A stretch of 64,000 bases of DNA from Bolinopsis microptera (lineage: Eukaryota; Ctenophora; Tentaculata; Lobata; Bolinopsidae), in contig NC_087074.1 of assembly GCF_026151205.1 (NCBI RefSeq), forward strand, positions 3,224,001-3,288,000, written 5' to 3'. The stretch's first letter is position 1. Each line of letters opens with the position of its first letter. A program made the translations under genes and the position numbers. The notes under the pieces are model-generated. The model searched no databases. It was not told where the DNA came from and worked only from the letters and a program-made list of their open reading frames with translations. This document shows positions 1,371 to 46,200 of this stretch, one piece after another.

Positions 1371-1459
1371 CTCTCTCTCTAATTATAGAGAGAGCTGCAA
1401 TTAGAGAGAGGAGAGCTGAAAATTACAACGCACGGGAAACTGCAAAACTGGGACTGAAA

Positions 1460-4400
1460 TAATACTGGAGATAAGTGTACTGTATTTTCCAATAATACTG
1501 GAGATAAGTGTACTGTATTTTCCAATAATACTACAGATAAGTGTACTGTATTTTCCAATAATACTAGAGATAAGTGTACTGTATTTTCCAATAATACTAC
1601 AGATAAGTGTACTGTATTTTCCAATAATACTACAGATAAGTGTACTGTATTTTCCAATAATACTGGAGATAAGTGTACTGTATTTTCCAATAATACTACA
1701 GATAAGTGTACTGTATTTTCCAATAATACTGGGGATAAGTGTACTGTATTTTCCAATAATACTAGAGATAAGTGTACTGTATTCTCCATTAATATTGGAG
1801 ATAAATGAACTGTATTTTCAAATAATACTGGAGATAAGTGTACTGTATTTTCCAATAATACTGGAGATAAGTGTACTGTATTTTCCAATAATACTGGAGA
1901 TAAATGTACTGTATTTTCCAATAATACTAGAGATAAGTGTACTGTATTCTCCATTAATATTGGAGATAAATGAACTGTATTTTCCAATATTACTGGAGAT
2001 AAGTGTACTGTATTTTCCAATAATACTGTAGATAAGTAAACTGTATTTCCCAATAATACTAGAGATAAGTGTACTGTATTTTCCAATAATACTAGAGATA
2101 GGTGTTCTGTATTTTCTAATAATACTGGAGATAAATGTACTGTATTTTCCAATAATACTGGAGATAAATGTACTGTATTTTCCAATAATACTAGAGATAA
2201 GTGTACTGTATTTTCCAATAATACTGGAGATAAGTGTACTGTATTTCCAATAATACTAGAGATAGGTGTTCTGTATTTTCCAATAATACTGGAGATAAGT
2301 GTACTGTTTTTTCCATTAATACTGGAGATGAGTGTACTGTATTTTCAAATAATACTGGAGATAACTGTACTGTATTTTCCAATAATACTGGAGATAAATG
2401 TACTGTATTTTCCAATAATACTGGAGATAAATGTACTGTATTTTCCAATAATACTGGAGATAAATGTACTGTATTTTCCAATAATACTAGAGATAAGTGT
2501 ACTGTATTTTCCAATAATACTGGAGATAAGTGTACTGTATTTCCAATAATACTAGAGATAGGTGTTCTGTATTTTCCAATAATACTGGAGATAAGTGTAC
2601 TGTTTTTTCCATTAATACTGGAGATAAATGTACTGTATTTTCCAATAATACTAGAGATAAGTGTACTGTATTTTCGAATAATACTGGAGATAAGTGTACT
2701 GTATTTCCAATAATACTGGAGATAACTGTACTGTATTTTCCAATAATACTGGAGATAAGTGTACTGTATTTTCAAATAATACTGGAGATAACTGTACTGT
2801 ATTTTCCAATAATACTAGAGATAAGTGTACTGTATTTTCCAATAATACTAGAGATAGGTGTTCTGTATTTTCCAATAATACTGGAGATAAATGTACTGTA
2901 TTTTCCAATAATACTGGAGATAAATGTACTGTATTTTCCAATAATACTAGAGATAAGTGTACTGTATTTTCCAATAATACTGGAGATAAGTGTACTGTAT
3001 TTCCAATAATACTAGAGATAGGTGTTCTGTATTTTCCAATAATACTGGAGATAAGTGTACTGTTTTTTCCATTAATACTGGAGATGAGTGTACTGTATTT
3101 TCAAATAATACTGGAGATAACTGTACTGTATTTTCCAATAATACTGGAGATAAATGTACTGTATTTTCCAATAATACTGGAGATAAATGTACTGTATTTT
3201 CCAATAATACTGGAGATAAATGTACTGTATTTTCCAATAATACTAGAGATAAGTGTACTGTATTTTCCAATAATACTGGAGATAAGTGTACTGTATTTCC
3301 AATAATACTAGAGATAGGTGTTCTGTATTTTCCAATAATACTGGAGATAAGTGTACTGTTTTTTCCATTAATACTGGAGATAAATGTACTGTATTTTCCA
3401 ATAATACTAGAGATAAGTGTACTGTATTTTCGAATAATACTGGAGATAAGTGTACTGTATTTCCAATAATACTGGAGATAACTGTACTGTATTTTCCAAT
3501 AATACTGGAGATAAGTGTACTGTATTTTCAAATAATACTGGAGATAACTGTATACTGTATTTTCCAATAATACTGGAGATAAATGTACTGTATTTTCCAA
3601 TAATACTAGAGATAAGTGTACTGTATTTTCGAATAATACTGGAGATAAGTGTACTGTATTTCCAATAATACTGGAGATAAGTGTACTGTATTTTCCAATA
3701 ATACTGGAGATAAGTGTACTGTATTTCCCAATAATACTGGAGATAAGTGTACTGTATTTTCCATTAATACTGGGGATAAGTGTACTGTATTTCCCAATAA
3801 TACTAGAGATATGTGAAATGTATTTTCCAATAATACTAGAGATAAGTGTACTGTATTTTCCAATAATACTAGAGATAGGTGTTCTGTATTTTCCAATAAT
3901 ACTGGAGATAAGTGTACTGTTTTTTCCATTAATACTGGAGATAAGTGTACTGTATTTTCAAATAATACTGGGGATAAGTGTACTGTATTTTCCAATAATA
4001 CTGGAGATAAATGTACTGTATTTTCAAATAATACTGGAGATAAGTGTACTGTATTTCCAATAATACTGGAGATAAGTGTACTGTATTTTCCAATAATACT
4101 GGAGATAAGTGTACTGTATTTTCCATTAATACTAGAGATAAGTGTACTGAATTTTCCAATAATACTGGGGATAAGTGTACTGTATTTTCCAATAATACTA
4201 GAGATAAGTGTACTGTATTTTCCATTAATATTGGAGATAAATGTACTGTATTTTCCAATAATACTAGAGATAAGTGTACTGTATTTTCCATTAATACTGG
4301 GGATAATTGTACTGTATTTCCCAATAATACTAGAGATAAGTGTAATGTATTTTCCAATAATACTAGAGATAAGTGTACTGTATTTTCCAATAATACTAGA

Positions 4401-5715
4401 GATAGGTGTTCTGTATTTTCCAATAATACTGGAGATAAGTGTACTGTTTTTTCCATTAATACTGGAGATAAGTGTACTGTATTTTCAAATAATACTGGAG
4501 ATAACTGTACTGTATTTTCCATTAATTATATTGTAGGTTAGTGTACTGTATTTTCAAATAATACTGGAGATAAGTGTACTGTATTTCCAATAATACTGGA
4601 GATAAGTGTACTGTATTTTCCAATAATACTGGAGATAAGTGTACTGTATTTTCCATTAATACTAGAGATAAGTGTACTGTATTTTCCAATAATACTGGGG
4701 ATAAGTGTACTGTATTTTCCAATAATACTAGAGATAAGTGTACTGTATTTTCCATTAATATTGGAGATAAATGTACTGTATTTTCCAATAATACTAGAGA
4801 TAAGTGTACTGTATTTTCCAATAATACTGTATTTTCCAATAGTACTGGAGATAAGTTTACAGTATTTTCCAATAATACTAGAGATAAGTGTACTGTATTT
4901 TCCAATAATACTAGAGATAAGTGTACTGTATTTTCCAATAATACTGGGGATAAGTGTACTGTATTTTCCAATAATACTGGAGATAAATGTACTGTATTTT
5001 CAAATAATACTGGAGATAAGTGTACTGTATTTCCAATAATACTGGAGATAAGTGTACTGTATTTTCCAATAATACTGGAGATAAGTGTACTGTATTTTCC
5101 ATTAATACTAGAGATAAGTGTACTGAATTTTCCAATAATACTGGGGATAAGTGTACTGTATTTTCCAATAATACTAGAGATAAGTGTACTGTATTTTCCA
5201 TTAATATTGGAGATAAATGTACTGTATTTTCCAATAATACTAGAGATAAGTGTACTGTATTTTCCAATAATACTGTATTTTCCAATAGTACTGGAGATAA
5301 GTGAACTGTATTTTCCAATAATACTAGAGATAAGTTTACAGTATTTTCCAATAATACTAGAGATAAGTGTACTGTATTTTCCAATAATACTAGAGATAAG
5401 TGTACTGTATTTTCCAATAATACTGGGGATAAGTGTACTGTATTTTCCAATAATACTGGAGATAAATGTACTGTATTTTCAAATAATACTGGAGATAAGT
5501 GTACTGTATTTCCAATAATACTGGAGATAAGTGTACTGTATTTCCCAATAATACTGGAGATAAGTGTACTGTATTTTCCATTAATACTGGGGATAAGTGT
5601 ACTGTATTTTCCATTAATAATGGAGATAAGTGTACTGTATTTTCCAATAATACTAGAGATAAGTGTACTGTATTTTCCAATAATATTGGAGATATAAAGT
5701 GAATTGTATTTTCCA
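1460..5715. repeat. 33-bp satellite array with higher-order repeats
   Basis: About 130 head-to-tail copies of a 33-bp unit (AATAATACTGGAGATAAGTG then TACTGTATTTTCC, with GGAG/AGAG/ACAG and AAGTG/AAATG variants). Because 33 is a multiple of three, several frames stay open for hundreds of bases on both strands. These are a by-product of the period, not genes. Some units are one base short (GTATTTCC instead of GTATTTTCC) and one type is cut to 18 bp. The positions of such marker units show higher-order copying: the block from about 2234 to 2795 recurs 756 bp downstream, and the block beginning near 4574 recurs 446 bp downstream at 5020. Flanking DNA is unrelated. Confidence 0.95.
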
Positions 5716-5719
5716 ATGT

Positions 5720-6866: not shown

Positions 6867-7052
6867 GTGACGACTTAATTGACGATGTCAATTCATGGCA
6901 GCTCGGCGCGGCACAGTAGTGCATTTCGCCGATCTAGCCAGTGAGAAGCCTCATTGAGTGCGCGGCGCGGCACAGTAACGCATCGCGCTACAAGTGACGA
7001 CTGACGCGTCGTCGACAGTTTTGTATTTCATAGTTTAACATTTGGAACAAAT

Positions 7053-7112
7053 ATTGTAGGTTTACAACCTACCAGGACGCGCGCCGAGTTGGACTCGTCG
7101 ACGGAATATGGA
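7053..7112. repeat. Partial copy of the foldback arm
   Basis: The sequence from TTGTAGGTTTACAACCTACC through GACGCGCGCCGAGTTGGAC matches the arm of the element at 6724-6866, including its small internal inverted repeat. The opposite arm is not found downstream. It is therefore a solitary or truncated copy. Confidence 0.6.
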
Positions 7113-8945
7113 ACAGATATTTTACGAGTATCACCCGTTAAAACAAATATTATATTAAATGAGTATCTATATCACCCGGCCATTTTTTTTTTTTTTTTTG
7201 AAAACAAATTTAAATTTTGGTATTTATTAATAACAATCAAAACATATCATATCATAAAAATAAGGCCGCGCGTTGGTTGACTGCCTCAGTAAGGTGAATA
7301 ATATAAGCTCGAAGGTGCCCTGCGCATTTACAGAACCTCATGCGGCGATCACATGATCATGAGGACCTGTGAGCGCCAAATTTAATTTAAAGTTTCTAGA
7401 AATCATACATCACTACGAGTTAATAAAACAAAAGTTAATAAAACAAAAGTTAAATTTATTACCAATTATTCAATCAATATATATCATAAATTCTAATATT
7501 GGAAACACAATGCACATTTTACAGCCTACTATAAGAGCCCAGATTTCCACTCAAATACTGGCCAATGCATAATGCTATAGGACCTCAAAAATAGTATTAT
7601 AAAACATTTCTATTTTATCCCTACACATTTGTAAATAACTAGAATTGTGTAACCTTAAATTATTTCAGAATTATAACTATTGTGAATTCAATAAAATAAT
7701 TATCACTTTTGTATCCTTGTATCCTTGTATCCTATCCAATGCAAAATGAATGTCTTAAACTATAATTTCATTGTGACTAATAATCTATTGACTTTCAAAG
7801 TTGAATTTTAGTTAAGTATGAAATGCCAACACATCATAGTTAGGGTAAAATGTTATTTTTAAATTTTAAAATTGAGAAGATTGTTTATGGCTTAAAATTT
7901 AAAATTCTTATTCTTCTAAAGATATCTTATTTTTAAATAGTTGGTTACAGTTTATGACAGTACTGGCATGACTAGTTTTATTGTGGCTGGTAAAAGGACC
8001 CAGTTGCCTGTAAGGGCTTTACCGAACCCCAGGGGACCACAATGTGATAAGATCAGGCCAGATGTTTCTATGTAGAGCAATTTATTTATTTTGGAGCTAT
8101 GGTTACGTGGTATAGCTGGTGGTCATGTTTAAAAGTCAGTTTATCCTTGTGTGCTAATTATCCATCCAGATGCTTAGTGATGTGGGTAAATCATGCCCTT
8201 CTACGATATATAATGTTTGACCATAAATTTGTTTTTACCACATAAACTGTGGCACTAATGTCAATTAACAATATTTACATTCATTGATATTTAAAGCGTG
8301 TTTTTTCCCCAGCACTACTACACAGTTACTCATGCTTTTTTAATTTTTATAGGAGTGTAGATTGTCAGGTATTTCATTCATTCATACTTAGTCGGTTTAA
8401 AGCTGTATATTTAGAACTCACTATTGTTTAAACTATGAAAGCAGAACGTAGGTAATGGACAATATACCGACGACAATACCAAGGACCCGAGTGCCACAAT
8501 GACTTTTCCGGATCCGTTTTTACCGAGGGCTTATCCACCAGTTACGCATGCTGCATGTATAGTCTGATAATATTTATTTGTTTTATTCTATATAGCAGGC
8601 ATTCTGTAAATTGGAGTGTCGTATTCATTATAAAAGAGCCAGCCAACCTCCGCATTATAATCTTTTGTGTGCCAAGTTCGTTTATAAAATCTAATCATAT
8701 AATAAAATTGATCCAATAATATAAGATGAACGGTATATATCAGCTCATCGTTATTAAAATCCGAATGGATGAATTAATCAAGTAATGTTCCCTTTCAACA
8801 CAACTAAACAACAAACAAATGCTTGCTCACCAGTGGTGACGCAATCGTAGGGGCATGCAGTTATTTCGGATAACTCTCACCCCGACGACGGCGTCGAAAA
8901 ATAATCAAATTATGCATTTGCGCCATACTGGACACATTTTATATT
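7113..8945. other. Gene-free AT-rich stretch
   Basis: No exon, RNA gene or complete transposon was recognised. A T homopolymer of about 17 bases lies near 7184-7200. The short open frames are AT-rich and lack domain similarity. Confidence 0.45.
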
Positions 8946-8960
8946 TAATATTCTACAGTT
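8946..8960. repeat. Left 15-bp target duplication of the Penelope-like element
   Basis: TAATATTCTACAGTT occurs here and again at 13279-13293, directly outside the two ends of the Penelope-like element. A 15-bp exact match placed this way is best read as the target-site duplication made on insertion. Confidence 0.75.
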
Positions 8961-10318
8961 ATGGGTAGGGTCATTACGCAGTAAGATGGTTGATAACTAT
9001 GGCTTAGATATTACATACGAAGTGAAACCAATCACGGAGTTCACTCAGTTCCTGGACATTCAGTACAAGTTTGTTGGAGGGAGACTCACAACAGATCTGT
9101 TTAGGAAACCTACTGACGCCAACAGGTATCTAGAATTCTCAAGTTTCCATCCACGACATACCTTCCGGAGTATAGTCTTCTCACAGGCACTTCGATACAG
9201 AAGGATAATCAATGATGACGTCTTGCTGGATGAGAGATTGGCAGAGCTTCAGTTGTTTTTTGAACGGTCTTCATATCCTACTGATATGGTGAGAGAGGTC
9301 ATCAGTGATGTCAGATCGATACCAAGAACTTTACAGTACAAGGCAAAGGATCAGGGTCCCCCTTCTTTCACACCATGGATTGTTACATTCGGTGCGGGCT
9401 ATGAGGAAACCAAGGAAAAGGCTAAAGAGGCCAGTAACATCATCTCAAATAGCCGTACATGGAGCAGTGAGAACCCTGAGAGGATCCCTAAACTCCAAGT
9501 GGTGACCAGGCGAGCCCCTAACTTAACCCATTAGGGACGACGAGTTTTAAAGTTTGCCGATTTTGATGCCGTTTAACACACTAGGTCACTTTACAGCAAA
9601 AATGAGATATCCAAAAAAGCTAATCTGTATCTCGTTTACTTTAAAAGATACAGCTACGGTCGCATACGACCCACTCGTCCGGGTCGCAAACGACCCATCA
9701 CGGTTTTTCGGCTTTAACTTCTGAAACAAAGACGTTAGGATAAAATAAAATAAAAAGCATAAGTTAAAAACATATGGTCAATACTGTGTGACTCTAACTT
9801 TTTTTAAATAAAGAATTTGGGTCATTAACGACCCACTCGGCTCACTTGCTTATTACTACATATGTCCATGTAACTTCTTGAATTCAGCCTAAAGCATGAC
9901 ATCATAAGTTCAAAATCGCCTCTCAGCAAGTGATAATCATCATAAACTGCGAAAAATCGGTTAAATGGGTCATTAGCGACCCACTAAGACCACAAAATTG
10001 ATTAATTAAATATAATGTTGTCAAACTTTTACAAATATTAGTATAAAAACATGTTATATCTTGGTCATTACTCCTGTACGTTGATTTAAATTTTTAAATC
10101 GATCAACTGGGTCAATAACGACCCACTCGGAAGTTGAACCACGACATTAATTATCAGTATCATGTTGTTCTACCATCAAGAAAGACACTCGTAGGTCTTA
10201 ATTCCACGCAAACCACGGGTGGCTGACTACTAGCCCTTCTGAGATCTGGAGTCTCACGGTAATCTGCAGATCACGTCACCCAATGACTGACGAATAATGG
10301 GCAGAATTGGATTGATAG

Positions 10319-10467
10319 CAGGGACAAAAGGATTTCGCGATTATTTTGGCCAAAAATCGCGGTACCGCGAAATTTAACAGGCTATACATTAAACTATACA
10401 TAAAATTTGTCGCGGAGAATGGGAAATTTCGCGATTTCGTACATGCCGCGAAATCCTTTTGTCCCTG
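10319..10467. mobile_element. 149-bp hAT-type MITE
   Basis: The 149-bp element starts CAGGGACAAAAGGATTTCGC and ends with the reverse complement, GCGAAATCCTTTTGTCCCTG. It is flanked by an exact 8-bp duplication, ATTGATAG, at 10311-10318 and 10468-10475. CAGGG tips and 8-bp duplications are hallmarks of hAT elements. It has no coding capacity. It inserted into the interior of the larger TTAA-flanked element and is therefore the younger of the two. Confidence 0.9.
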
Positions 10468-10649
10468 ATTGATAGGTAGGTGAGTTTATCAGCTGTTAGT
10501 ACACGACCGTAATGTCGTGAGACAGCAAACAACATGCCTATTTTTTCCCGATTCCTAGAACGTCCAAGAAGAACTATACAACTGCTGGATTCAGATTTCA
10601 GATGGCTGCATCTACTCTCTTCGCAGCTCCCTTTCTTTACTTCTTATAA

Positions 10650-10912
10650 GGGGCCGTTCATATATTACGTAATCACTTATTGGACAATTTTTACGCCCCC
10701 CCCCCCCCCCACCACATAGCTATTATGTCAAAATTACACAAGCTTAATCATTTGGAAACTCCCCTCCCTCTCGGCCGATTACGTAATACTTGTTTTCGTT
10801 TTGAAAGCTGCCTCGTTGTTGCGGGGTTTGTTACCCAAAACGAGGTAGTTGTCTGAGAGATTGCAGGTTGCAGCACCGCCAGCCAAATGGGGGGGGGGGG
10901 GGGGGGGGGCTT
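10650..10912. mobile_element. Short element with TTACGTAAT ends and C/G homopolymers
   Basis: It begins near GGGGCCGTTCATATATTACG and holds a run of about 15 C at 10695 and one of about 21 G near 10890. A block reading (on the minus strand) ATTACGTAATCGGCCGAG then GGAGGGGAGTTTCCAAATGA matches a second copy near 27290-27345 in the SPTLC2 gene. It splits an inverted repeat of the host element, which argues for a later insertion. The exact ends and superfamily are not resolved. Confidence 0.5.
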
Positions 10913-13278
10913 TTTCCTTGTCCTTCTTCACAGAGCTGTAGATGTAGCCATCTGAATGCAGCAGTTGTTTAGTTATTCTCGTACTTTCTAGGAATGAAAA
11001 AAACATATTGGCATGTTGGATTAGAATATGCAATTTGACCACTCGTCTTTCAGTATTTACCCAAGGTTACATGATATCTCGTATACTTCGTTCAGGGGAT
11101 TTTTCTTGAGTGACATGATCTGATCACCGTGGGACCCTGGGTCTCAAGCGGTGGGTTGAAGCAGGTCGTTTACCAAGATTCGAAATTGACGAAAAAGGTA
11201 ACAGAATCTAATAAGCAACAACAACAGCATGGCTATTACCTAGCAAGTTAGGAACGAGGGCCGATTCCTTTTCTTTTGCGGCACGGCCACGGTCCTTTCG
11301 GTACAGATTTCCACGCACCATAGTATTATAATCAGGACGCAACTCCAGGCATATGCAGTAGTGTTATTCTCGCAGCTCTTTGATAAGTGATGACGGCCCT
11401 TCAGTTGGCCCTGGATCTCAGAAGGGCTAGTAGTCAGCCACCCGTGGTTTGCGTGGAATTAAGACCTACGAGTGTCTTTCTTGATGGTAGAACAACATGA
11501 TACTGATAATTAATGTCGTGGTTCAACTTCCGAGTGGGTCGTTATTGACCCAGTTGATCGATTTTAAAATTTAAATCAACGTACAGGAGTAATGACCAAG
11601 ATATAACATGTTTTTATACTAATATTTGTAAAAGTTTGACAACATTATATTTAATTAATCAATTTTGTGGTCCTAGTGGGTCGCTAATGACCCATTTAAC
11701 CGATTTTTCGCAGTTTATGATGATTATCACTTGCTGAGAGGCGATTTTGAACTTATGATGTCATGCTTTAGGCTGAATTCAAGAAGTTACATGGACATAT
11801 GTAGTAATAAGCAAGTGAGCCGAGTGGGTCGTTAATGACCCAAATTCTTTATTTTTAAAAGGTTAGAGTTACACAGTATTGACCATATGTTTTTAACTTA
11901 TGCTACAGTTTTTATTTTATCCTAACGTCTTTGTTTCAGAAGTTAAAGCCGAAAAACCGTGATGGGTCGTTTGCGACCCGGACGAGTGGGTCGTATGCGA
12001 CCGCAGTTAGTAAACAGCGTCTAGCTCTGTTTGTGAACATCTGATTATCACGGGCTTTTCATATGTCTCAAGGAAATCGTTGCCCGCAACTATTTTGTCC
12101 TCAACAAAATAAGCCTACATAAAGTTTTAATGTCCCAATCAAGGCAAGAAGTAAAGTGAAATATTTTCCAACTATGACGACTAATTAGCCTAATTATTTA
12201 GTTGTTAGTAATTAATTGGGTCTCGACTGGAAAGTCAATAATGTAGCCCAATAAATTTTGAGCATATGTGCGAAAGATTCGTTGCGTTTAGTATTATGGT
12301 TTGTCCTCTATAGCCTCTAGAAAAGGTGGGTCGTAAACGACCCTATCGTCCCTAATGGGTTAAAGGACACTTTATTCAAGAGAAAGAAGCTTGCCTTAGG
12401 TTCAGAGTCAAGAACAACTGACCCATGCACCAAACCTGGCGAGAAGAAGAAAGGCAGACCCTGCCAAACTTGTCACCTTGTTAGTGGCAATTCCATGGTC
12501 TCCAATAATGGACACTCAGTCAGAACTCAAGGTGGTAACTGTAAGACACGCAACATTGTGTACGGCGCGACATGCAAACTTTGTACTGTTAATAACGTAT
12601 ACGTGGGAAAAACAGTCACCAGCCTCAGCCAACGTGTGAATGGTCATCGCAGTAAATATTATGAGATTTTAGAGGCGAGTAGTAAGGGGAATGTTGAGAG
12701 CCATAGAGTTTTTGATGACGAGAATGTTTTAGGGGCACATCTTTTTTCAGTTCATAATTTGAGGGAGAGATCTGTTTTCAATGAAAGTTTCCATTTTGAT
12801 ATTTTGTGTTCTACATCCCCAGATAATATTAGAAAGTCAGAACAGTTTTATATTAACAAATTGAAGACACTTTATCCGTTTGGCCTGAACAATGTGAATT
12901 CCGTTTCTGGAAGCTAATTTTTCATGGTGTCCCGAATTTTATTTTTAAATCGTCCATTTTTTGTTTATATATGCAGTCTATCAATTTTTGAATTGCGTCT
13001 TTTTGATTTAATGAACTACTGCAGACTCCACATTATTATAGTATATGCGATTAATTTTGTTCCGATTTTAAACTATTCCATTTTTACGAGATGCTAAATT
13101 AATTTTTTGAGACTTTACTACATTTTTGATGAGAATTTTTGACATTTTCAAACTAACCATTGATATTCTCAGATTATGTGACTGATTAAATGCTGAAGAT
13201 AAAAGAAATATATTCATTTTGCTAAGATTATGTTTGCGTTTCATTGCTCAACAGCTGTTCGAAGGATCAAATATAAGA

Positions 13279-13293
13279 TAATATTCTACAGTT
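13279..13293. repeat. Right 15-bp target duplication of the Penelope-like element
   Basis: Exact repeat of TAATATTCTACAGTT found at 8946-8960. It marks the 3' end of the Penelope-like insertion. Confidence 0.75.
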
Positions 13294-16200
13294 TGTAGTA
13301 ATTATAGTGTTATATCTACAGTATAGCTTAACTGGCGAGCAAGCATCGTCCCACTCGGCCGGGACGAAAATACCGAGTCCAATCACAGAAAGTTGATCAT
13401 AAACTAAAGATAAATATAAGAGCTCGGACATCGACAAAAATCACACACTCCAGACGACGGGGGAAGAGAGGAAAGAAAGAGCGGCGCACATTGGGATTTA
13501 TTCATGCATACTGGGTTGTGCAGTGGCGCTTAATTTTTCATTCTGTTATTATATTAAATATTTTCAATATGAACACAATAGCCCGTGAAATCGATATCTC
13601 CTTGCTCTAACCAGAGCCCTCTCGCCTGCGTCACGCAGTACGCGTAGGCACATGGCTATGTGAACTACTGGGCTGAGTGTGCCTGATCGCCGAGCTGCGA
13701 AGAATTGAATTGAAGGTGGTCACGCAGTACTCGTATACACATGGCTATGTGAATATTAAAATTGTTTCACGGTGAATTATACTAAACGGCGTTCAATTTA
13801 TACCTGTCTTCACGTGTGAGTGTTTACAAACAATTAAGAGTACGTTGTATCACGTCGTGACCCCCATCGTCGTTACACTATACACTATAGTGAAGAGTGT
13901 AGATTTTCTACGATACAGGCGGGTCATACAACGTATGACAAAGAGTACGTCATCGATTTTTGAAAAATATGGTGATATTTTTGGTAGATCAGTCTTTTAT
14001 CTTTTACTTTAAAAAATACAAGCTTCCATTCACGAGATAGCCAGATATCTGGCAACGCCGCTCATGATGCTTCTCCTTACTGGGCCGCGCTCAGCCTGTC
14101 ATTCTGCCTGATCTCTATTCGTATGTTTATGAACATGATAGCCTGAGGTCCCCAGGTAAGCTTCTCCAAGCTCACACAAGTGTCAGCAAAGATATTCATG
14201 CATTTCTGCACGAGGAGCCCATCACAGCCACCAACAATTAATTTGTTTCCAAGGCTTAGGCCGTTACCATTTTGTGCTATATTTGTGCTGTCTTTATGTC
14301 TTTGTGCTGTCTTTCATCCATCCAGTGGATTTATTTAACTTTTGTTTTATTTGTGCGTGTGATTATAAGCCTGCTGCTGTGATAGAATTAAATAGTATCT
14401 AACTTGGTAGTGAAGCCACCTAACATATACAGTGAGCAGGAACACAATAGCCTCAAGAAGCTCACCATGAAATTGATCAGCTAGTTGAGGATCTGATTTG
14501 GGATTACTGGGGCTGTTACGAGTGACAATCCTGATATAACAAGGTGGTTTGTTTGTTTACCCAATTAGGCTCAAGTTTAACGTACATGTAGACAACTGTC
14601 ACTGATCTGATGAAAACAGTGATCGCAACTTATCGACAAAGTTATTTCAAATTGTACGGATATCACCTGTAATCATTCCATAGTGAGGTCAAAAAAGAAT
14701 TTGCATGGGAGCCCCATCTTATCCATGCTAGGTTATTCCAGGACAGAAGAGTAACCAGTCAGATTCGGTACATTTCGCATCATCTTAGATTTAGAGATAT
14801 GATAAAATACCACTAGTTACAATGTCGGTAATGGTTGCTTCAATCTTGATTTCACGTTCGTACCGCTACCCTATCGCAAGGATAATAGAATAATTGCTTT
14901 CTAGAATCTTTTACGTGAGATCCCCAGGAATTAAGGAATTGATTTTGCAAGTTTTCAATTATTACTTAAGGGCTGCAAGAGTTTGCGAGGAGAATTGCGT
15001 TAAGCAGTGATAATGAGTTGCTCTGGAGAAGGTTCGGATTGATACTGTTGAAGCCAGGGGTATAGGAAAATCTTGGCAAGGGGCGGAAAGGGGCCAACTT
15101 TTATCAGCCTCATTTAGCCTATCCGTCATTGCATTATCTAAATTGTCTTACTGCTTAAGTGTAGTCCAAATTTACATTCCTCATTGCTATAATTCATTCC
15201 TGAAAGCAAATTTTCCAACATTTTTCCAGATTCTCCTTCTTTGCACCCTTTTAGAGACTTATTGGTTATTACTGTAAGTATATTTTCAAAATTTGTAGGA
15301 CTTTATCCTTTGACCCCTAAATTGGCACAGCAAAGCCAAAATCTTACTGGATTTATCATTTCACATTACTAGATTTCAATCCTGAAAGCAAACTTTCTAA
15401 AATTCTTTCAAAGAATACAATATTTTAATTGGTCTGAGGAATGAAACACCTAATATGATCAATCACAGCCCCACCAATCTCTAAGAGATTATCAGTCAGT
15501 GATATAAAACAATCATAATAATAAATCAATCATAATAATAAATCAAATCATAAATAAAATCAACACAATGGGGAAATAGGAAATACAAACAATGGCGCTC
15601 TGAAAGACTCTGTTCGTTCATACACTTTCAATAATAAAGAATGTCAATAACTTTACTCTTCACTGCTGAGTTAATCTTTGAAACTACATTCTGATCCGAG
15701 TGTTGGGCTATTTGGTTATATAAACCATACCCATTTTCCGCTGGGTCGATATTCTTTACCTCACATAACTTATCCCACATCTCTACTTGTAGTCTTCATT
15801 CTTCATAGCTCATTGATGTTCTCCATTGTGGCGGGGCTGTTAGGCGAGCTGCTCGTGTGCCAGGGTCTCTCACAACATATTGCACATTAGTGTTTCCATT
15901 AGGGGGTGGTTGTTATTCTTCTTTTTCATCTCCTGATACCTGAACTAACACAATATATGCATCCCTTTTTCGAATCAAACTTATTTAGCAAGAGCTGCTA
16001 GTAGGCTCTTATATAATGTATTTAAAATCGTATTATTTGAATCGTTCTTGAAACTGTGTTTAAAAATGATCTCTAGTGCCAACGTGCTCAGCTAGACCTT
16101 TAAAAAAATGTTCTACTGCGAAATGTTCGTCATTAATACCCATCTGCTAACAGAATTTAAACAGGATGCAGCCTTCGGCAATGATCCTGCCATAAACTTT

Positions 16201-34200: not shown

Positions 34201-37200
34201 TAAATTACCTGGAGTAATTTTGTACAAGTGGCTAGGTCCAAAGTGAAGTTGAGGAGACAAGGCGGTTGCCAGGAAGGCGTCCAGTTCGTACTCCCGCAAT
34301 ACCTTGTTGCCAGTAGTAAGGATGTACCGCAGAACTATACATACCTGGGATGATCAGAGCGATAATTTGGTGGTGAGGTGATAATTTGATGATTTATTAT
34401 TATTATAGGGTACATTTGAATGAGAATCTTGACCTTATATAATTTAATAAGAATTTAGAATGTGAAAGATACTCATAAACGGAAGAGATGGAAAAATGCA
34501 TATATCCAACGACAATGACGAGACGGATTTAATTGAAAATAATATTAAGATGGAGCTAGAATTATGAGACCAGATGATAGCTCATAAAATTGTTCCCTCA
34601 GCTCTGATAACAAGCACGCAGACACTGGTGTTAAAACTAATGATTGAAATTGAACGCTCCGGATAAACATACCAGCAAGTATTCATTAGCAATAATGTTA
34701 GGACTAAAGAATGAAGGAATGTTGCTGTTCATGATGGCGAGCAGGGTACTGCGTCTCAGCTCTTGTATTTTAGCACTCATTCCTGAAGGAGAAAGTGAGA
34801 TATATGCGTTAAATGAGAAGAAACGAGATTACGGATTGAATGAGTATTGTACTTAAATGTGGCTTGATTATCTAAAATAGGAGCCGATAATATTAGACTT
34901 ATGACAATACTTTAAAGTAGACATATGAATAACAATTTCAGGTTTTGTATGCCACAGCATCGACAGTATTAAAAGGATTAAAACTCAAAATAGATTAAAA
35001 AAGTGACTTTGTGATTTTTAACGTACCGATCCACAGTCGGTCGATGTGGGGGGTAGGTTTTCTAGCGGGTTGTTTTGCATTGGGAGCGTGAACCGGCATT
35101 GCTGGAACCTCTTCCCCATCCACCAGATTCCTCTTAGAACCGTTAACTATAAACTCCTTGACGATCACTTGACGTTGTGTATCTATCTTGGTGCTGCGCT
35201 GCCGTTTAGCGTCAGATTTTACCCATCCGCGACCAACTCCGAAGACAAGACCGTAGATTCTCTGTCTTGCGGTCCTGAAAATACACACGCGGTAAATCTA
35301 GGTTTTAAAATAACATGGACATTGGACAAAAGCTTTAATTCTTTATCTTTCCTATGAATGAGCATATTTCCCAAATTTAGGATATTCAATGAAAATTAGC
35401 GTATTTAAACAAATTTTAAATTCTGGTCTACACAGAAGAACTTGTGGTCAACACAAGGAAATTTGCCCTGTAATCAAGCTAACCTGTACAAAAGAGCTGA
35501 CGAGACCGTATCCTTATCCTTGTTATCCTCAAAAAGTGGCCCTAAAGACAGGGTGCCAGTGCACATAAGAGGGTACAGATGAGTGTTGAGCGTACCGCTC
35601 GCGTGCGCTGCCGCAGCGCTGCTCAGGACCTTGCTCGTTATAGCTGGTACAGTTACTGGAAGAGAAATTGATTATTAATGGCAATGATTTGACTTCTTAT
35701 TCCACAAGTTGAGGTAGCATCTGGCTGACTTGTCGATTGTACGATCTAAACTAACCAGTACAATGAAATTTGTATAATTATGTCAGTACTGGAACGATTC
35801 AGTAGATTCTGTTTATGTAGTGAGAGCACCGTGTACTTTAAGATCGGTTTTACAATTGTACATCGTACAGATATTTAAATGAGCTCATTGCTTCATCGGA
35901 GTTTCACCAGAGCTCAGTTGAGTTTTAGTTTAAAGTTATAATTTTTTATTTAAGTTTAAGAAGTGCATCATTTCAGAGAGATATATCTAGTCCGCATAAC
36001 CGTACCGGATGTAGAATGTAAAATACAATATAATTATAACAGCTTCCTAGTATTTTCCTCTATCTTTGCGAATGTCACTCGCGAATGTGTTTTTATTTTT
36101 TGATTCCCCAGTTTGCAGCCTCAGAACATGATATATTGATTAATTTTTGTGATTAGTCAAGGAAAACCGTGCTCGAAGGATTACATTACTTTAATCCTTG
36201 CACCCTGATCCGTGATGTTCTGTACTCAGGAACAAGTACTTAGAGTCAAACCTCAGTTTCAAAACGGTAGTAGCTCACTGATCTTGCCGCTCTTCGTCAG
36301 TCTCACATGCAAACATATCACTACATAACATGATGCAAGTATTCCTATTATCTACTGTTTTTAGTACGTTGATAATAACTCACCAGTTTGTCTGCGCTAA
36401 CATCGCAGGATTTATAATTAGTGAATATCTGATGATTTACTAACTGGTCTAACTCTCTCACTACTGGTCTCCTCTCCACTCCAGTCCCAGGGCTTAGTTC
36501 CAGTCCCCGTCAGCTCCAGTCCCCCCGGCCCCACTCCAGTCCCCCTCAGCTCCAGTCCCCCTCAGCTCCAGTCCCCCTCAGCTCCAGTCCCCCTCAGCTC
36601 CAGTCCCCCCGGCCCCCACTCCAGTCCCCCTCAGCTCCAGTCCCCCTCAGCTCCAGTCCCCCCGGCCCCCACTCCAGTCCCCCTTAGTTCCAGTCCCCCT
36701 CAGCTCCAGTCCCCCCGGCCCCCACTCCAGTCCCCCTCAGCTCCAGTCCCCCCGGCCCCCACAGCTCCAGTCCCCCGGCCCCCACTCCAGTCCCCCTCAG
36801 CTCCAGTCCCCCCGGCCCCCACTCCAGTCCCCCTTAGTTCCAGTCCCCCTCAGCTCCAGTCCCCCCGGCCCCCACTCCAGTCCCCCTCAGCTCCAGTCCC
36901 CCCGGCCCCCACAGCTCCAGTCCCCCCGGCCCCCACTCCAGTCCCCCTCAGCTTCAGTCCCCCTCAGCTCCAGTCCCCCGGCCCCCACTCCAGTCCCCCT
37001 CAGCTCCAGTCCCCCCGGCCCCCACTCCAGTCCCCCTTAGTTCCAGTCCCCCTCAGCTCCAGTCCCCCCGGCCCCCACTCCAGTCCCCCTTAGTTCCAGT
37101 CCCCCTCAGCTCCAGTCCCCCCGGCCCCCACTCCAGTCCCCCTCAGCTCCAGTCCCCCCGGCCCCCACAGCTCCAGTCCCCCCGGCCCCCACTCCAGTCC

Positions 37201-40200
37201 CCCTCAGCACCAGTCCCCCCGGCCCCCACTCCAGTCCCCCTCAGCTTCAGTCCCCCCGGCCCCCACTCCAGTCCTCCTCACTCCAGTCCCCCTCAGCTCC
37301 AGTCCCCCCGGCCCCCACTCCAGTCCCCCTCAGCTCCAGTCCCCCCGGCCCCCACAGCTCCAGTCCCCCGGCCCCCACAGCTCCAGTCCCCCCGGCCCCC
37401 ACTCCAGTCCCCCTCAGCACCAGTCCCCCCGGCCCCCACTCCAGTCCCCCTCAGCTCCAGTCCCCCCGGCCCCCACTCCAGTCCCCCTCAGCTCCAGTCC
37501 CCCTCAGCTCCAGTCCCCCCGGCCCCCACTCCAGTCCCCCTCAGCTTCAGTCCCCCTCAGCTCCAGTCCCCCCGGCCCCCACTCCAGTCCCCCTCAGCTC
37601 CAGTCCCCCCGGCCCCCACTCCAGTCCCCCTCAGCTCCAGTCCCCCTCAGCTCCAGTCCCCCCGGCCCCCACTCCAGTCCCCCTCAGCTTCAGTCCCCCT
37701 CAGCTCCAGTCCCCCGGCCCCCACTCCAGTCCCCCTCAGCTCCAGTCCCCCCGGCCCCCACTCCAGTCCCCCTCAGCTTCAGTCCCCCTCAGCTCCAGTC
37801 CCCCCGGCCCCCACTCCAGTCCCCCTCAGCTCCAGTCCCCCCGGCCCCCACTCCAGTCCCCCTCAGCTTCAGTCCCCCTCAGCTCCAGTCCCCCCGGCCC
37901 CCACTCCAGTCCCCCTCAGCTCCAGTCCCCCCGGCACCCACTCCAGTCCCCCTCAGCTCCAGTCCCCCCGGCCCCCACTCCAGTCCCCCTCAGCTTCAGT
38001 CCCCCTCAGCTCCAGTCCCCCCGGCCCCCACTCCAGTCCCCCTCAGCTCCAGTCCCCCCGGCACCCACTCCAGTCCCCCTCAGCTCCAGTCCCCCTCAGC
38101 TCCAGTCCCCCTCAGCTCCAGTCCCCCCGGCCCCCACTCCAGTCCTCCTCACTCCAGTCCCCCTCAGCTCCAGTCCCCCTCAGCTCCAGTCCCTCCGGCC
38201 CCCACTCCAGTCCCCCTCAGCTCCAGTCCCCCCGGCACCCACTCCAGTTCCCCTCAGCTCCAGTCCCCCTCAGCTCCAGTCCCCCTCAGTTCCAGTCCCC
38301 CCGGCACCCACTCCAGTCCCCCTCAGCTCCAGTCCCCCCCACCCCCAGTTGTTACTATTAAATCTTGCCAATTTATCTATAACACGATAGGGTCAGGGGT
38401 ATAATTTGTGTAATAATACACTCCTACTATCGTTATAATACTAGTACTAAACCTCATGAAAAATAAGACAGAGTTTCAGTTCATTCATTCTATGTTATTA
38501 TTGTGCTCCCGGTTTTGTTCTGATCAATTTAACGTTTCTAACAGCAACAAAACTAGTACACGACTGTATACATACATTTTATCATTTATTGGAAAACGTC
38601 CAATTCTAATTTTCAAAGTTGTTTCTTCTGAGTACTTGTTTCTGACTCAATCAGTCCAAATCTCACAATTTTAAGCAGAGTATTTGTGTTCTGTCAAGGT
38701 GCCAAAAGCCGTATATCTATTTCCATCCTTGGAACTTAACCGGAAACATAGTGTTCACCAACTGAAGCACTGTAAAATATCTCCACAATCCAATCCTTTA
38801 AATTAGAATAACCATCTTTACAATCGTGATACTTATTGCTAAGTATCTGATTAATTTAATACGGAATTTTGAATAATGCAGGTTACTAAACCTAATTTAG
38901 AAAAATTACCTATAACGTAAGTATAATATTAGCTGTTCTAATTTTAAAGTGTCGAGTAATGCTCTGACCTCCTGAACAATGACCAGAGTACTTATGAATA
39001 ATTATGTAATAACTTAAACCAATAATATGGGACGTGATGGGTGACGTTAAATTAATTTCAATGACCGGGTACAAGTGAATAATGGATGATGGGTACAGGG
39101 CAGTCCTGAGCATGAGCTGTTATCAGTTTAGCTCATTAAATACCCATTGTGACCCGTTTTCTGGCTTCTTTAAAATTTAATTAACTTAATTAACCAAACC
39201 GTTACCCTGGGTTTTATCTAAAAAACTGTGCTTCTGAACTTGTTCAAGTTTAAGCCTCAAAAGCCATGGATCGGGAAAACATTTGTGATCATAATAGTGA
39301 TTAAACGATCATTGAAATACAGCCTAACGTCGATTACTGTGTCTCCGCTAACCCGGACTCTCCCGATTATCTGTGTCTGTTTGTCTTCCCCAAGCACTAG
39401 TTTTAAGTATTAATTAATGTAAATCTTATTGATATTTACCGAATACCTCAAGTAACCGGACCCGGGATGTTTGCCTCCCCAGAGACCGGTGAGGTACGAT
39501 TCTGATTCGTTATTAAACGTGTATGTGACAGTCCGTGACAGTCCAAGTTCCTTAGTCCAAGTGCCTAGTATACATCTGGGCCAGTGATCATTCCCTGTTA
39601 GCTTATTTAATTATAATATTATTAATTTATAACGAACGTTTTCTTTATTTTTCGTCAGATATTTGTACCTGATATCTTAACATTACGTTATTGACGTTTC
39701 ACATGTTACAATCAAATCATATCTCGGCTGAACCACTTTGTTTATATTTTCACTCTGATGTTGTTGAACATACTGGTGAATAACATTGGTTATACTGTTA
39801 GCTTGTAGAGTGAACGCTGAGATTAGTAAACGTCCGATGAGGGCCGGCAGGTTGATTTTAATGTTTTGTAAAGCGTCATAGCTGGTTGCTTTGGTTTCCA
39901 TGCATATTTTTGCATTTTATAACTTAGTGTAATATCCGGTCTCCGGATCGGAACATTATTTTTAAGTCGCATTGTTGTAACGTTTTTTGGGCAAAATTTG
40001 CAGTGTTCCCGTTTATTGTCACAATAAACGGGAACACTTAAAATATTGCCCAAGAAACATTGCATTGTCACTTAGTAATCGACCAATTTTAAATCTAACA
40101 ATCATATTTTTTACGTTGTGTGTTTCCCTTCGTGTCCAAAAGCATTATAATCATATTTTTATATTGATACATTTATTATTTATCAACAAATTCGATTCAG

Positions 40201-43200
40201 TTTCAAACCGTCTCATAATTACATGTTATACGTTTTACAAGTCACAGTGAACGAAGCTGAAGTAATGACATAACTTGCTTCCTCCTCAGTCCTCACGAGC
40301 TTTAAATTCCACGCTTCTAAAACACTTCAGACCCCACTGCTTCCTAATGTTCTAGAGTTGTTGTGAGATGTATGCCGGCACGTTTGCTTGCTGAGCTTAT
40401 ATTGTTGCATATATTAGTTGTATTACTACTTACTAGCTGTCCTTGAAGATATTATATTTCTCTTGTTGTGGTAGCCATATCTTTTTTTCTAATATCTTAT
40501 ACCTATTGTTATCATATTATAGTCGCTGCCTTGTAAATGATTTTCATAATTTAATACTAACATACAAGTAAGTAAATGATAAAAACTATTTGTAAATGAT
40601 GTGGGTTGAATTTTGCTTATTTGTCGGTTTAATTCCTAAATAAAACGGGGTTTTTTTAAAAAGACGTGTGTCGAGTAATGAAATGAAGACATTCAAGCAG
40701 CATGTTAGAGGTGTCCACATTGGAAGAGGGTGGGATGTGAGAGCTATGATTGTTTTATGCCCGCATTCACAAGGAGAGGCCGTTAGAGCACGTGTTATTT
40801 TGGTTTAGATTCTAGATCTTAAACTACAATTAAGGTCACAAATAATGAGCTGCAAATGATAACAGTGGCCAACTTACTCACCTCAACGCTTACATCAAGG
40901 AAATATAATATTCATTTTTATGGTACGTGGGTCGTAGTCACGAGGTAAAGTTAGTTGATAGATAACGTGACCATTTTTAGCCAGCGAGAAGGGCTCGATT
41001 TGATTTACCTGGGGACCCAGTCTTAGTTCTTTAAAAAGTGTTTTTTAAATTAGTCGGAGTGAGCGGCTGGCAAGCGTCTTCTTTGATATGAACACTCATC
41101 AAGTCATCAAATGCAATACTGAAATAATATATAAATTTATCCACGTGTATCGCCACGTTACAAAATTGCGTTACCCAGGCCCATTCGCAGTTTGGTTAGC
41201 TGTCATGTGGTAACCAGTGGTTACCACATGACTAACCACGAGGGTATCACGATGGTAGCAGCATTGCAGGACGCTCATTAGTCATTGGACAATGAACACT
41301 TCGTGACAGAAGTAATTACATTGTTTTGCCGATTTGACACAGGTAAAATTCACCAAATTTCAATTTTTTTGTCGGAAAATGTTCCCAAGACTGTTTTCTT
41401 GTGCCGTACTATAAGTATATTTTAGAACTCCTGACAAAATTCGTACCTTCGGCACTAGTTGGGTCAGGTGTTTTATAACTTCTACTCACGTTTGTAAAAC
41501 CAATAATTTTCCATAGCTCACCACTTATTCCTTTCCATGGCCTAATCTCTTAACAACATTCTTTACTCTCTAAACTAAAGTTTCTGGAATTTAGAAGAGA
41601 TAACGATAGCTTAAATAAATTACTATGCCAATTATGAAAATGCTGCTAATATCAAAAAATCTTACATTGTAGAAATTGTAATACATGGACATTCCGCTGG
41701 GTTATAATTATGTGCAAACGCTGCCGATGAACGGAAATGGCGGGCTGGACAACAATAGGGACTTGAGGAGGGTTATCCTTCCCCAGAACCACAGGATCAT
41801 AATCCACGGAGCTCAATTTTATAGTCTGATAATTTAATCCAGCGGACGATTAAACAATTTCTCAAAGCTGATATTTCAATTCATCAATGCTATGATGCTA
41901 TTTTGGTGCACATCGTTTATCTGTCCGGGCCTGTTTTAGCAGCCCGATCTGTCCAGGCCTGTTTTAGCAGCCCGATCTGTCCGGGCCTGTTTTAGCAGCC
42001 CCATCTGTCCGGGCCTGTTTTAGCAGCCCCATCTGTCCGGGCCTGTTTTAGCAGCCCCATCTGTCCGGGCCTGTTTTAGCAGCCCCATCTGTCCGGGCCT
42101 GGTTTAGCAGCCCCATCTGTTCGGGCCTGTTTTAGCAGCCCCATCTGTCCGAGTCTGTTTTAGCAGCCCCATCTGTCCGAGTCTGTTTTAGCAGCCCCAT
42201 CTGTCCGGGCCTGTTTTAGCAGCCCTATCTGTCCGGGCCTGTTTTAGCAGCCCTATCTGTCCGGGCCTGTTTTAGCAGCCCCATCTGTCCGGGCCTGTTT
42301 TAGCAGCCCCATCTGTCCGAGTGTCCGGGCCTGTTTTAGCAGCCCCATCTGTCCGGGCCTGGTTTAGCAGCCCCATCTGTCCGAGTGTCCGGGCCTGTTT
42401 TAGCAGCCCCATCTGTCCGAGTGTCCGGGCCTGTTTTAGCAGCCCCATCTGTCCGGGCCTGGTTTAGCAGCCCCATCTGTCCGAGTGTCCGGGCCTGTTT
42501 TAGCAGCCCCATCTGTCCGGGCCTGTTTTAGCAGCCCCATCTGTCCGAGTCTGTTTTAGCAGCCCCATCTGTCCGAGTGTCCGGGCCTGTTTTAGCAGCC
42601 CCATCTGTCCGAGTGTCCGGGCCTGTTTTAGCAGCCCCATCTGTCCGGGCCTGGTTTAGCAGCCCCATCTGTCCGAGTGTCCGGGCCTGTTTTAGCAGCC
42701 CCATCTGTCCGGGCCTGTTTTAGCAGCCCCATCTGTCCGAGTCTGTTTTAGCAGCCCTATCTGTCCGGGCCTGTTTTAGCAGCCCTATCTGTCCGGGCCT
42801 GTTTTAGCAGCCCCATCTGTCCGGGCCTGTTTTAGCAGCCCCATCTGTCCGGGCCTGTTTTAGCAGTCCCATCTGTCCGAGTCTGTTTTAGCAGCCCGAT
42901 CTGTCCGGGCCTGTTTTAGCAGCCCGATCTGTCCGGGCCTGTTTTAGCAGCCCTATCTGTCCGGGCCTGTTTTAGCAGCCCCATCTGTCCGGGCCTGTTT
43001 TAGCAGCCCCATCTGTCCGGGCCTGTTTTAGCAGCCCTATCTGTCCGGGCCTGGTTTAGCAGCCCGATCTGTCCGGGCCTGTTTTAGCAGCCCTATCTGT
43101 CCGGGCCTGGTTTAGCAGCCCCATCTGTCCGGGCCTGGTTTAGCAGCCCCATCTGTCCGAGTGTCCGGGCCTGTTTTAGCAGCCCCATCTGTCCGGGCCT

Positions 43201-46200
43201 GGTTTAGCAGCCCCATCTGTCCGGGCCTGTTTTAGCAGCCCCATCTGTCCGGGCCTGTTTTAGCAGCCCCATCTGTCCGAGTCTGTTTTAGCAGCCCTAT
43301 CTGTCCGGGCCTGGTTTAGCAGCCCCATCTGTCCGAGCTTCCGAGTGTCCGGGCCTGTTTTAGCAGCCCCATCTGTCCGAGTCTGTTTTAGCAGCCCTAT
43401 CTGTCCGAGTCTGTTTTAGCAGCCCCATCTGTCCGAGTGTCCGGGCCTGTTTTAGCAGCCCCATCTGTCCGGGCCTGGTTTAACAGCCCCATCTGTCCGA
43501 GTCTGTTTTAGCAGCCCCATCTGTCCGGGCCTGTTTTAGCAGCCCTATCTGTCCGGGCCTGTTTTAGCCCCATCACTCAGTGCAGACCAGAAAATAGAAT
43601 AATTGCTTCAGTTTTGTGGTCAACTATTCGGATTTAAAACAGAGGAATGCTCTGACGCAGTTAACCTTAACTGCTGCAGTTTTGCCAAAGTATTGAACAT
43701 TTAGCTTCCGTGTTTTGATAAGCCCACATCCAACCTGGTGGAGACGTTGATCTTTGCTCTTTTCTACAATTACAAATACGTATGTGATAAATCCTATTTG
43801 CTAGCAGACGATTTACGTTATAAATCTTGGACGATTTTAGTGCTTTTAAATTTTAGTGCAGACAGTTTAAATATAATATTGTGGCAGAATATTGAATATT
43901 GGTGGTAACTACACTTTGACAGTTTGACACTGCTCGTATAGCCAGTATTTTATTAGCACCACATCTTTAACTTTTATCAGCGTGGTACAAGTGCGGTAAT
44001 GGTGATTGTGTTACCTTATCAAAAGCAGATAGCAGCCAATATCATCAGATTACATAAACAAAAAATGCTCAAATGCAGCATCGTTTCATTTTAGATTATA
44101 TAATTGTTTTGTGCACTGGATACATACAGAGTCGAGTAAGATACTTACATATCTGTTCACTGCTAGAGTAATCAATATCAGTTTTTTGATGTCGTGTAGT
44201 TTGGTGTAACAACTCAATTTAGGTTCAAGTAGCAATTCAATTTAGGTTCAAGTCATGGAAATTTTGATAAGAAAGTTTAAAACATAAATATTTCACGCGA
44301 CGTTAGTTCCTTCATGCAATCATGGAAACTTGAAACATTTGTTAAAAGCCCGTTTATTTTATTTCTTTGAAATTCGCTTGACTTTGGAAATACCCACTCC
44401 TAAAAATAAAGCTTTACGGCCGCTGGCAGCTTAACGATTTTGATCTTCCAGCCCTTGTTTTACTTAATCCAGCAATTGCTTAATTTTTCCCATAGGCTGA
44501 CCTAAAAGATTCAATGAACTATTAATTTGCATGAAAAAGTTAAACATGAAGTCATTTACTGACACTGTGCAATACTATTACTATTGGAAACATTTTCGAA
44601 TACATGTGTCTTAAGTTTCCTTTTGAATAACAGAATATCACAGCTTTTAATTGGTAGCAGGTTTCGAACAAAGGGTCCTCAGTTACTTAGGTGTCGATCA
44701 GTTCTACGAATATTTGGTATCTTTTATCTTTATTTTTAAATTCTAAGACCACTTCTAACGTTTAAATTGTACGTACACTACTATGCATAATGCATGTGCG
44801 CATCTTACATGACTTGGCGACTTGACAAGTCCCATATTAAAATCTGTTCACGTAAACAGATCAGAATTCTCCTAGGAACAAGATTACATATCGTCGTGGT
44901 TTTTTTAAAAGGGCGAATGTTTAAGAAGTTTCGAGATAATGGCCCCTAAAGGATAAAATTGGCCCTTTTATGTAACCCATTTTTTGAAACGTTTTAGGGC
45001 GAATGTGTGACATAGTATGTATAACATATTGTATAACATTCGGCTTTTTTGAATTCTCGAAAATAACATTCGCCCTTTGAAAGTTTGAAAATCTAAACTA
45101 AGCACGATAGAGCTTTTCGGGATGTTATAAGACCTATTTTTTAAGCCATACTGAAATTTGACATTCGCCCTTTTAAAAAACCACGACGATACATTATCAC
45201 ATTCCCCATTGACCATTCTTCACATGGATAGGAGGTTATTCCAAGCTGTTATCGTACTTGCTTTGGTTGATCATTCTTGTCACTATGCTAAGTTTAAGTG
45301 ATTGCGCTTTTAAAAACTTTATGCGTTCAGATTTTATTAAATATTGATTTCTCCGGAGTCCGGACACATGATAAGACACTAGTTTTACTTTGATACTTAA
45401 TGGATTTATAAAGGAGAACGTTTTGATGCTCCACAAATTCGTTCCATTTGCTGCTGTGGTTATCAACGAATCGAATGATCATTATCTGCAGCCTTTTTTT
45501 TACGGCAAGATACCTTAAACCGACTTTCTTATTCCGAAATTAAATATCAAATAATTTATATAAAATAAACTTCAGTAAAAGATTCAGACTTACTGAGTTT
45601 TTGAGGTAGCTCGTCATCCTTAGTACTATCTTCATTCGACATTTCTTCGTTTCCTTCGTTGTCTTCGCTAGTTTCTTCGCTAAATTCTTCTTTAACTTCG
45701 TCTTCTTCGGCAGTATTCTCTTCTTGTATCGCTTCTTCCTTGATCTCTTCTTCTTTGACATCGTCTTCCTTGACCTCTTCCTTGACCTCTTCCTTGACCA
45801 CCTCTTCCTTCACCTCTTCTTTGATCTCTGCTTCTTTGATATCCTCTTCTTTGTTCTCTTCTACTTTGATATCTTCTTCTTTGACCTCATCTACTTTGAC
45901 CTCATCTACTTTGATATCTTCTATTTTGATCTCCCCTTCCAGCACTACTGCTTCAGTTTTTTCGGTAACTCCATCATCAACGCTGAGGTATTTATAAATC
46001 ACTATGCGAATGTTAACATGTAATAGTATGGTAATTAAATTGAAAACCTACAATATCAGACAAAAGTAAGCGATTGTTCAAAAAAGTTTTTAAACTCATA
46101 CATTTTAGCTTCTCCGATCATTTCAGTAATCTCATCAACAGCGTTAATCTCCTCTTTTTCTTCTTCCTCCTCCTCCTCGTTGTCTTCTGCTTCGTCAACT

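Follow-up and report, generated by a model that had tools for sequence, protein, structure and literature searches.

In Adineta vaga, as the available part of the report describes it (PMC3846280), a Penelope element lies within a non-long-terminal-repeat (non-LTR) retrotransposon, full-length and 5′-truncated copies occur in partial tandem, and Penelope target duplications are short (8, 9 and 10 bp); the insertion into the non-LTR element itself has no duplication and is joined through microhomology. In corals, the accessible text of PMC2872659 describes CMITE, non-autonomous TTAA elements; one family has ends in common with a piggyBac-like transposon found in that genome, and one insertion was shown against an empty allele. 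The interruption analysis of PMC2517846, in the portion available, likewise draws on transposons that interrupt transposons, as a genome-wide method, whereas the present work concerns one locus. This locus lies in Bolinopsis microptera, in a 64-kb stretch of DNA (contig C3, positions 3224001–3288000; hereafter the window) of a searched genome of 264.65 Mb in 232 contigs. In it, a long interspersed nuclear element (LINE) holds a Penelope-like element, which holds a piggyBac-type TTAA element, which in turn holds a hAT-type miniature inverted-repeat transposable element (MITE).

The locus resembles the Adineta vaga nest, as far as the text of PMC3846280 allows comparison, in placing a Penelope-like element inside a non-LTR retrotransposon, in the short target duplication, and in the partial tandem of full-length and 5′-truncated copies seen in the family. 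It differs in that the insertion into the non-LTR element carries a 15-bp duplication, and in that a TTAA element and a MITE lie further inside. Like the coral elements, the TTAA element is non-autonomous and shares its ends with a piggyBac-type transposon of its own genome; unlike CMITE, as portrayed in the available text of PMC2872659, it is 2.7 kb long, longer than a typical MITE. The same source gives piggyBac-type ends as 12–19 bp inverted repeats with the terminal motif CC[C/T]T, whereas the window element and its transposase-bearing relatives begin CCCA, placing this family slightly off type. The parts of the nest are as follows.

7200..7422, reverse strand: LINE 3′ end piece; aligns to locus L069 at 99.5%, L071 at 97.8% and L070 at 94.7% (from 7256 on)
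8325..8960, reverse strand: second piece of the LINE 3′ region; matches and alignment to LINE copies
8946..8960, forward strand: left copy of the 15-bp target duplication, TAATATTCTACAGTT; read in the sequence, and present once in each of the three unbroken LINE copies read (L069, L070, L071)
8961..9526, forward strand: upstream part of the Penelope-like element, 98–100% identical to other copies; 5′-truncated, its first whole codon being residue 610 of the 981-amino-acid frame of locus L078
9523..9526, forward strand: left copy of the TTAA duplication; sequence, and copies with both ends read
9527..12359, forward strand: non-autonomous TTAA element of piggyBac type; 27 other full copies and the transposase-bearing relatives L072–L075
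10311..10318, forward strand: left copy of the MITE target duplication, ATTGATAG; sequence
10319..10467, forward strand: 149-bp hAT-type MITE with inverted ends CAGGGACAAAAGGATTTCGCG; genome copies, and its absence from all 27 other full TTAA elements
10468..10475, forward strand: right copy of ATTGATAG; sequence
12360..12363, forward strand: right copy of the TTAA duplication; sequence, and copies with both ends read
12364..13278, forward strand: downstream part of the Penelope-like element; frame to a stop ending at 12917 with a stretch that looks GIY-YIG-like by eye, then the 3′ untranslated region
13279..13293, forward strand: right copy of TAATATTCTACAGTT; sequence and repeat count in the window
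13294..13479, reverse strand: third piece of the LINE 3′ region; matches and alignment, the window copy being 5′-truncated at about 13479

Duplications, boundaries and unbroken relatives together define four levels, and each of the three hosts, the LINE, the Penelope-like element and the TTAA element, has relatives that lack the break. Because each element is contained in the one before it, the order of arrival was LINE, Penelope-like element, TTAA element and MITE; for the inner three, containment is joined by the uninterrupted relatives. We read the nest as four independent transpositions, each landing in the previous element, with a rough probability of 0.96. A preliminary description of this DNA had recognized three levels: it placed all three inner layers correctly, and the 15-bp, TTAA and 8-bp repeats lie where it had located them, each with its own layer, while the LINE around them had escaped it. 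Its order of events for the inner layers holds up, amended by a still earlier LINE insertion. It had also pointed to uninterrupted copies elsewhere in the genome as a check, and these were recovered for the Penelope-like and TTAA hosts and, in addition, for the LINE.

All layers derive from repeated families and the data are a single assembly, circumstances in which assembly or polishing could have joined unrelated repeats. The three inner joins, however, fall precisely at exact target duplications and at ends that other members of the families also show, and an artefact of this kind is very improbable. Within the 64 kb, the 15-bp repeat TAATATTCTACAGTT has its two matches and no other when one mismatch is allowed; shuffled sequence gives 0.02 matches on average.

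The open Penelope-like frames at 8905–9534 and 12321–12917 are in register when a single TTAA is counted, as had been proposed, and in natural copies that lack the interruption the frame continues across this position. In a search with a 300-base join across the TTAA site, 39 of 40 scored copies (from 45 candidates) were unbroken, the window being the only broken one, and all seven other copies read across the site carry one TTAA each. These two results indicate that the frame is truly interrupted and, among the scored copies, only in the window. The 39 other copies are 96–100% identical over the compared stretch, and breakpoints at the 5′ end vary from copy to copy. The window copy, truncated and interrupted, is dead.

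The same counts bear on whether the TTAA block, or likewise the MITE, belongs to the larger element around it and was copied along with it, a view with which the many near-identical copies in both families would agree. The preliminary description had named Penelope-like copies elsewhere with the same block as the observation that would overturn its account; none was found among the scored copies, for which a block belonging to the Penelope-like element is refuted. TTAA elements, moreover, sit in many different flanks, and the MITE is absent from all 27 other full TTAA elements; such common descent of host and insert is extremely improbable. In a separate observation, the Penelope-like copy at L002 holds, at 578–818 of that locus, a palindromic TTAA MITE of 241 bp (both TTAA included) whose 18-base ends are identical to those of the window TTAA element; it occupies a TTAA in the 3′ untranslated region, so that the family has been hit twice, independently.

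The TTAA element has 14-bp inverted ends, CCCATTAGGGACGA (18 bp counting TTAA); its subterminal inverted repeats extend over about 590 bp and are 98% identical. It measures 2841 bp including both TTAA, or 2684 bp once the MITE and one ATTGATAG are subtracted, and 26 of the 27 other full elements fall within 2674–2694 bp. The remaining one, at locus L066 (C12:12350765), is 3121 bp long, more than 400 bp longer than the other 26, and probably carries another insert. TTAACCCA stands at the left end of all 39 merged loci, window included, in differing flanks. The exact right end was read in 28 of these 39 loci (in the other 11 the fetched piece ends early or the exact 18-base string is absent), and all 28 fully read copies, again with the window, have TTAA on both sides. 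Their mean pairwise difference is 0.79%.

A piggyBac-type transposase (PF13843) was matched at 26 places in the genome, of which the best four were read (L072–L075). Each bears DDE_Tnp_1_7 at an E of about 1e-79 in an open frame of 678–681 amino acids (671 from the first ATG in L073), and their first ~420 bp are 80–82% identical to the window TTAA element, with the first 42 bases the same. The link of the TTAA element to piggyBac, judged by sequence, is strong, and this transposase family with similar ends is its likely mobilizer. All four loci also contain a tandem array, its period about 39 bp, inside or beside the transposase-bearing element.

MITEs of the hAT superfamily are marked by 8-bp target duplications and short inverted ends. 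The innermost element has both, in the duplicated 8-bp ATTGATAG and in its perfect 21-bp inverted ends. The genome contains hAT dimerization domains (365 candidates, of which 150 were scored). Among 39 other listed copies, 13 are 100% identical over the stretch covering its 149 bases (40 scored of 943 candidates). The 27 other full TTAA elements have a single ATTGATAG in its place, and in a search with the left half of the TTAA element the match to each of the 39 other listed copies stops at base 788 of the query, corresponding to window position 10318, the last base before the MITE (40 scored of 296 candidates). The MITE as a part of the TTAA element is rejected on its absence from these full copies and listed left halves. 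The TTAA element might instead have arrived already carrying the MITE, the MITE having inserted elsewhere: cut-and-paste movement can carry an inner MITE along, and 11 private sites in the TTAA element (see below) fit a past elsewhere. The 27 full copies and 39 left halves without the MITE speak against this, if weakly, since a cut-and-paste donor would have vacated its old site. We consider arrival with the MITE unlikely and prefer its insertion into the TTAA element in place.

The outermost layer, a LINE fragment at about 7200–13479, is antisense and 5′-truncated and represents a LINE 3′ region. With the flanks joined at the 15-bp site, all 40 listed places match across the join at 91–98% (40 scored of 182 candidates). 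On the LINE strand, L071 encodes a 427-amino-acid frame with an RVT_1 match (E = 3.7e-25), and a T run at 7183–7199, at the left end of the window copy, looks like a poly-A tail. End points differ among the window, L069 and L070/L071, as expected under 5′ truncation. Because of this frame, the T run and the varying end points, we assign the flank to an antisense LINE 3′ region; by these sequence features, reverse transcriptase, poly-A-like 3′ end and 5′ truncation, the outer layer is a LINE, a non-LTR retrotransposon.

Taken together, a model for the assembly of the nest emerges. A LINE inserted in antisense and 5′-truncated form, leaving its 3′ end and the T run. A Penelope-like retroelement then entered the LINE 3′ region, with only its last ~1.48 kb copied and 15 bp duplicated, a pattern consistent with target-primed reverse transcription starting at a staggered cut. 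The TTAA element, which is non-autonomous and was presumably mobilized in trans by the end-sharing piggyBac transposase family, entered the Penelope-like frame at a TTAA. Finally, the MITE, presumably moved by a hAT transposase, entered the TTAA element with duplication of 8 bp.

Several observations weigh against this reading of four successive transpositions, or against the names given to its participants. For the LINE step, no target duplication was identified around the LINE ends; a 13-bp match at 7148–7160 and 13547–13559 is not adjacent to them, and a join built on it gave no unbroken relative. That joined-flank query returned 1722 first-look candidates, and the 40 scored fell nearly all on an abundant short repeat of ~100 bp, at about 7046–7150, just outside the LINE, into which its left flank falls. 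For the Penelope-like step, the reverse transcriptase stretch taken by itself reached RVT_1 at E = 0.22, below the Pfam cut-off, and GIY-YIG gave no Pfam match in the frame. The junction repeats of six other insertions (below) are a count without a shuffled control, and at L002 nine of the 12 shared junction bases lie inside the element. The transposase-bearing relatives of the TTAA element were compared at the left end, their right ends lying beyond the stretch read. The hAT name is taken from the ends and duplication length of the MITE, with no hAT transposase tied to those ends. Lastly, by divergence the inner TTAA element seems older than its host.

This last point follows from comparison with the nearest copies. 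The LINE differs from its nearest read relatives at 20 of 1035 positions (L069, L071) and from L070 at 52 of 1034; the Penelope-like element differs from L078 at 1 of 1443 and from L003 at 2 of 1475, with 3 to 8 of 1475 for L004 to L008. The TTAA element differs from its nearest read relative at 16 of 2672, and the MITE shows no difference from its nearest copy. A count of 108 in 1429 between the window and L002 proved an alignment artefact, caused by another insert that L002 carries, and is left out of this comparison. Nearest-copy counts for the TTAA element and its Penelope-like host differ at a Fisher P of about 0.01, as do the private sites, 11 (of 2672) in the TTAA element against 0 (of 1475) in the Penelope-like element, where the latter count comes from nine rows at eight loci with the misaligned L002 included. 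Subsampling the TTAA element to eight other copies leaves 11–15 private sites.

Since the TTAA element lies inside its host, its divergence cannot equal its insertion age. The excess likely reflects donor mutations carried along by cut-and-paste movement, and copy sampling may contribute. The preliminary description had proposed a comparison of copy divergences and called the nest a dating landmark; the comparison contradicts containment and yields no valid insertion date. What survives is a clean record of order: the nest is an order marker and not a clock, because divergence would put the TTAA element before its host. Four transposon families that move by different mechanisms can here be ordered relative to one another without ambiguity, within one genome, and the inner three seem to be young. 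The nest is also a compact warning that copy divergence is no guide to when a cut-and-paste element inserted. In itself, the nest is a clean, well-preserved yet ordinary case of common transposon nesting.

Its mildly unusual part is the Penelope-like family, which is young and multi-copy and whose 981-amino-acid frame is hardly recognized by Pfam. Within the frame, YGYPLLKIHK, SIDIVSLYDS, RFVDDI and FRKPTDANRYL are stretches that we take, by eye, to be Penelope-like reverse transcriptase motifs, with an unusual GVPTGGINSVDCGNIALF stretch at the position of the B′ motif, and we likewise presume by eye that NIVYGATCKLCTVNNVYVGKT belongs to a GIY-YIG endonuclease. Longer Penelope-like frames gave no RVT_1 match in Pfam, and Pfam searches with pieces of the element returned nothing above cut-off, rows such as Spore_GerAC at 0.017 looking like chance. 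Among solved structures, matches reached E = 0.12 at best, and no nuclease or reverse transcriptase was among them; a search of viral contigs found no relatives. The predicted structure of the 183-amino-acid endonuclease piece had a mean pLDDT (predicted local distance difference test) of 32.9 and was not used. GIY-YIG (PF01541) was matched elsewhere in the genome, in many frames open up to 1043 amino acids that possibly represent other Penelope-like families; none of 150 scored places (of 524 candidates) coincides by coordinates with the 40 Penelope-like copies, which suggests that this family is divergent from the GIY-YIG families that Pfam sees.

Structural features also point to Penelope. 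At L078, read as one locus, the complete 981-amino-acid frame has a 5′-truncated copy directly upstream, head to tail, and partial head-to-tail tandem copies are described for Penelope elements in the available portions of PMC3846280 and PMC11167929. Short target duplication and 5′ truncation, further features of Penelope-like elements, are present as well (the 15 bp duplicated in the window occur once where the site is unbroken). A hammerhead ribozyme motif is also reported for Penelope-like elements in the accessible text of PMC11167929. Rfam gave no match, hammerhead or other, up to E = 5 in L006, L007, L008 and L078, and none in the window. We treat the motif as an optional feature of Penelope-like elements, and its absence as not excluding. 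The name Penelope-like would thus draw on the motifs seen by eye, the tandem structure, the target duplications and a sub-threshold Pfam match. Of the names that the layers were first given, that of the piggyBac-type element is strongly backed, and the others, hAT through ends and duplication length, are less so. A divergent Penelope-like lineage, recently or currently active, would account for a reverse transcriptase and endonuclease below Pfam recognition, a full 981-amino-acid frame, a partial tandem and copies 96–100% identical, and we advance this only tentatively, as an improbable proposal.

At other insertions of the family, all six tested share 11–13 bp at their junctions. At L002, L004 and L008 the shared stretch extends into the first 9, 5 and 4 bases of the element, a pattern like that of microhomology. 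At L003, L005 and L007 the repeat does not reach the junction, the gaps being 4, 10 and 2 bp.

The LINE of the window contains two further inserts, one within the other.

7423..8324, no strand assigned: insert X in the LINE; its main part matches 41 other places at 91–98%, and its ends are uncertain by a few bases
7515..7736, no strand assigned: insert Y inside X, about 222 bp, with a duplication of about 7 bp, CAATGCA; its flanking halves abut in other X copies

Elsewhere in the window, 1458–5717 is occupied by a minisatellite whose 33-bp unit is repeated well over 100 times and which is open in several frames. Two more minisatellites, also long, lie at 36499–38349 and 41919–43568; one of them is C-rich and the other has 28-bp units. 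An open frame at 56664–57713 carries a Peptidase_M14 zinc carboxypeptidase domain (E = 4.8e-24), together with a carboxypeptidase regulatory-like match below cut-off, and is probably a host gene.

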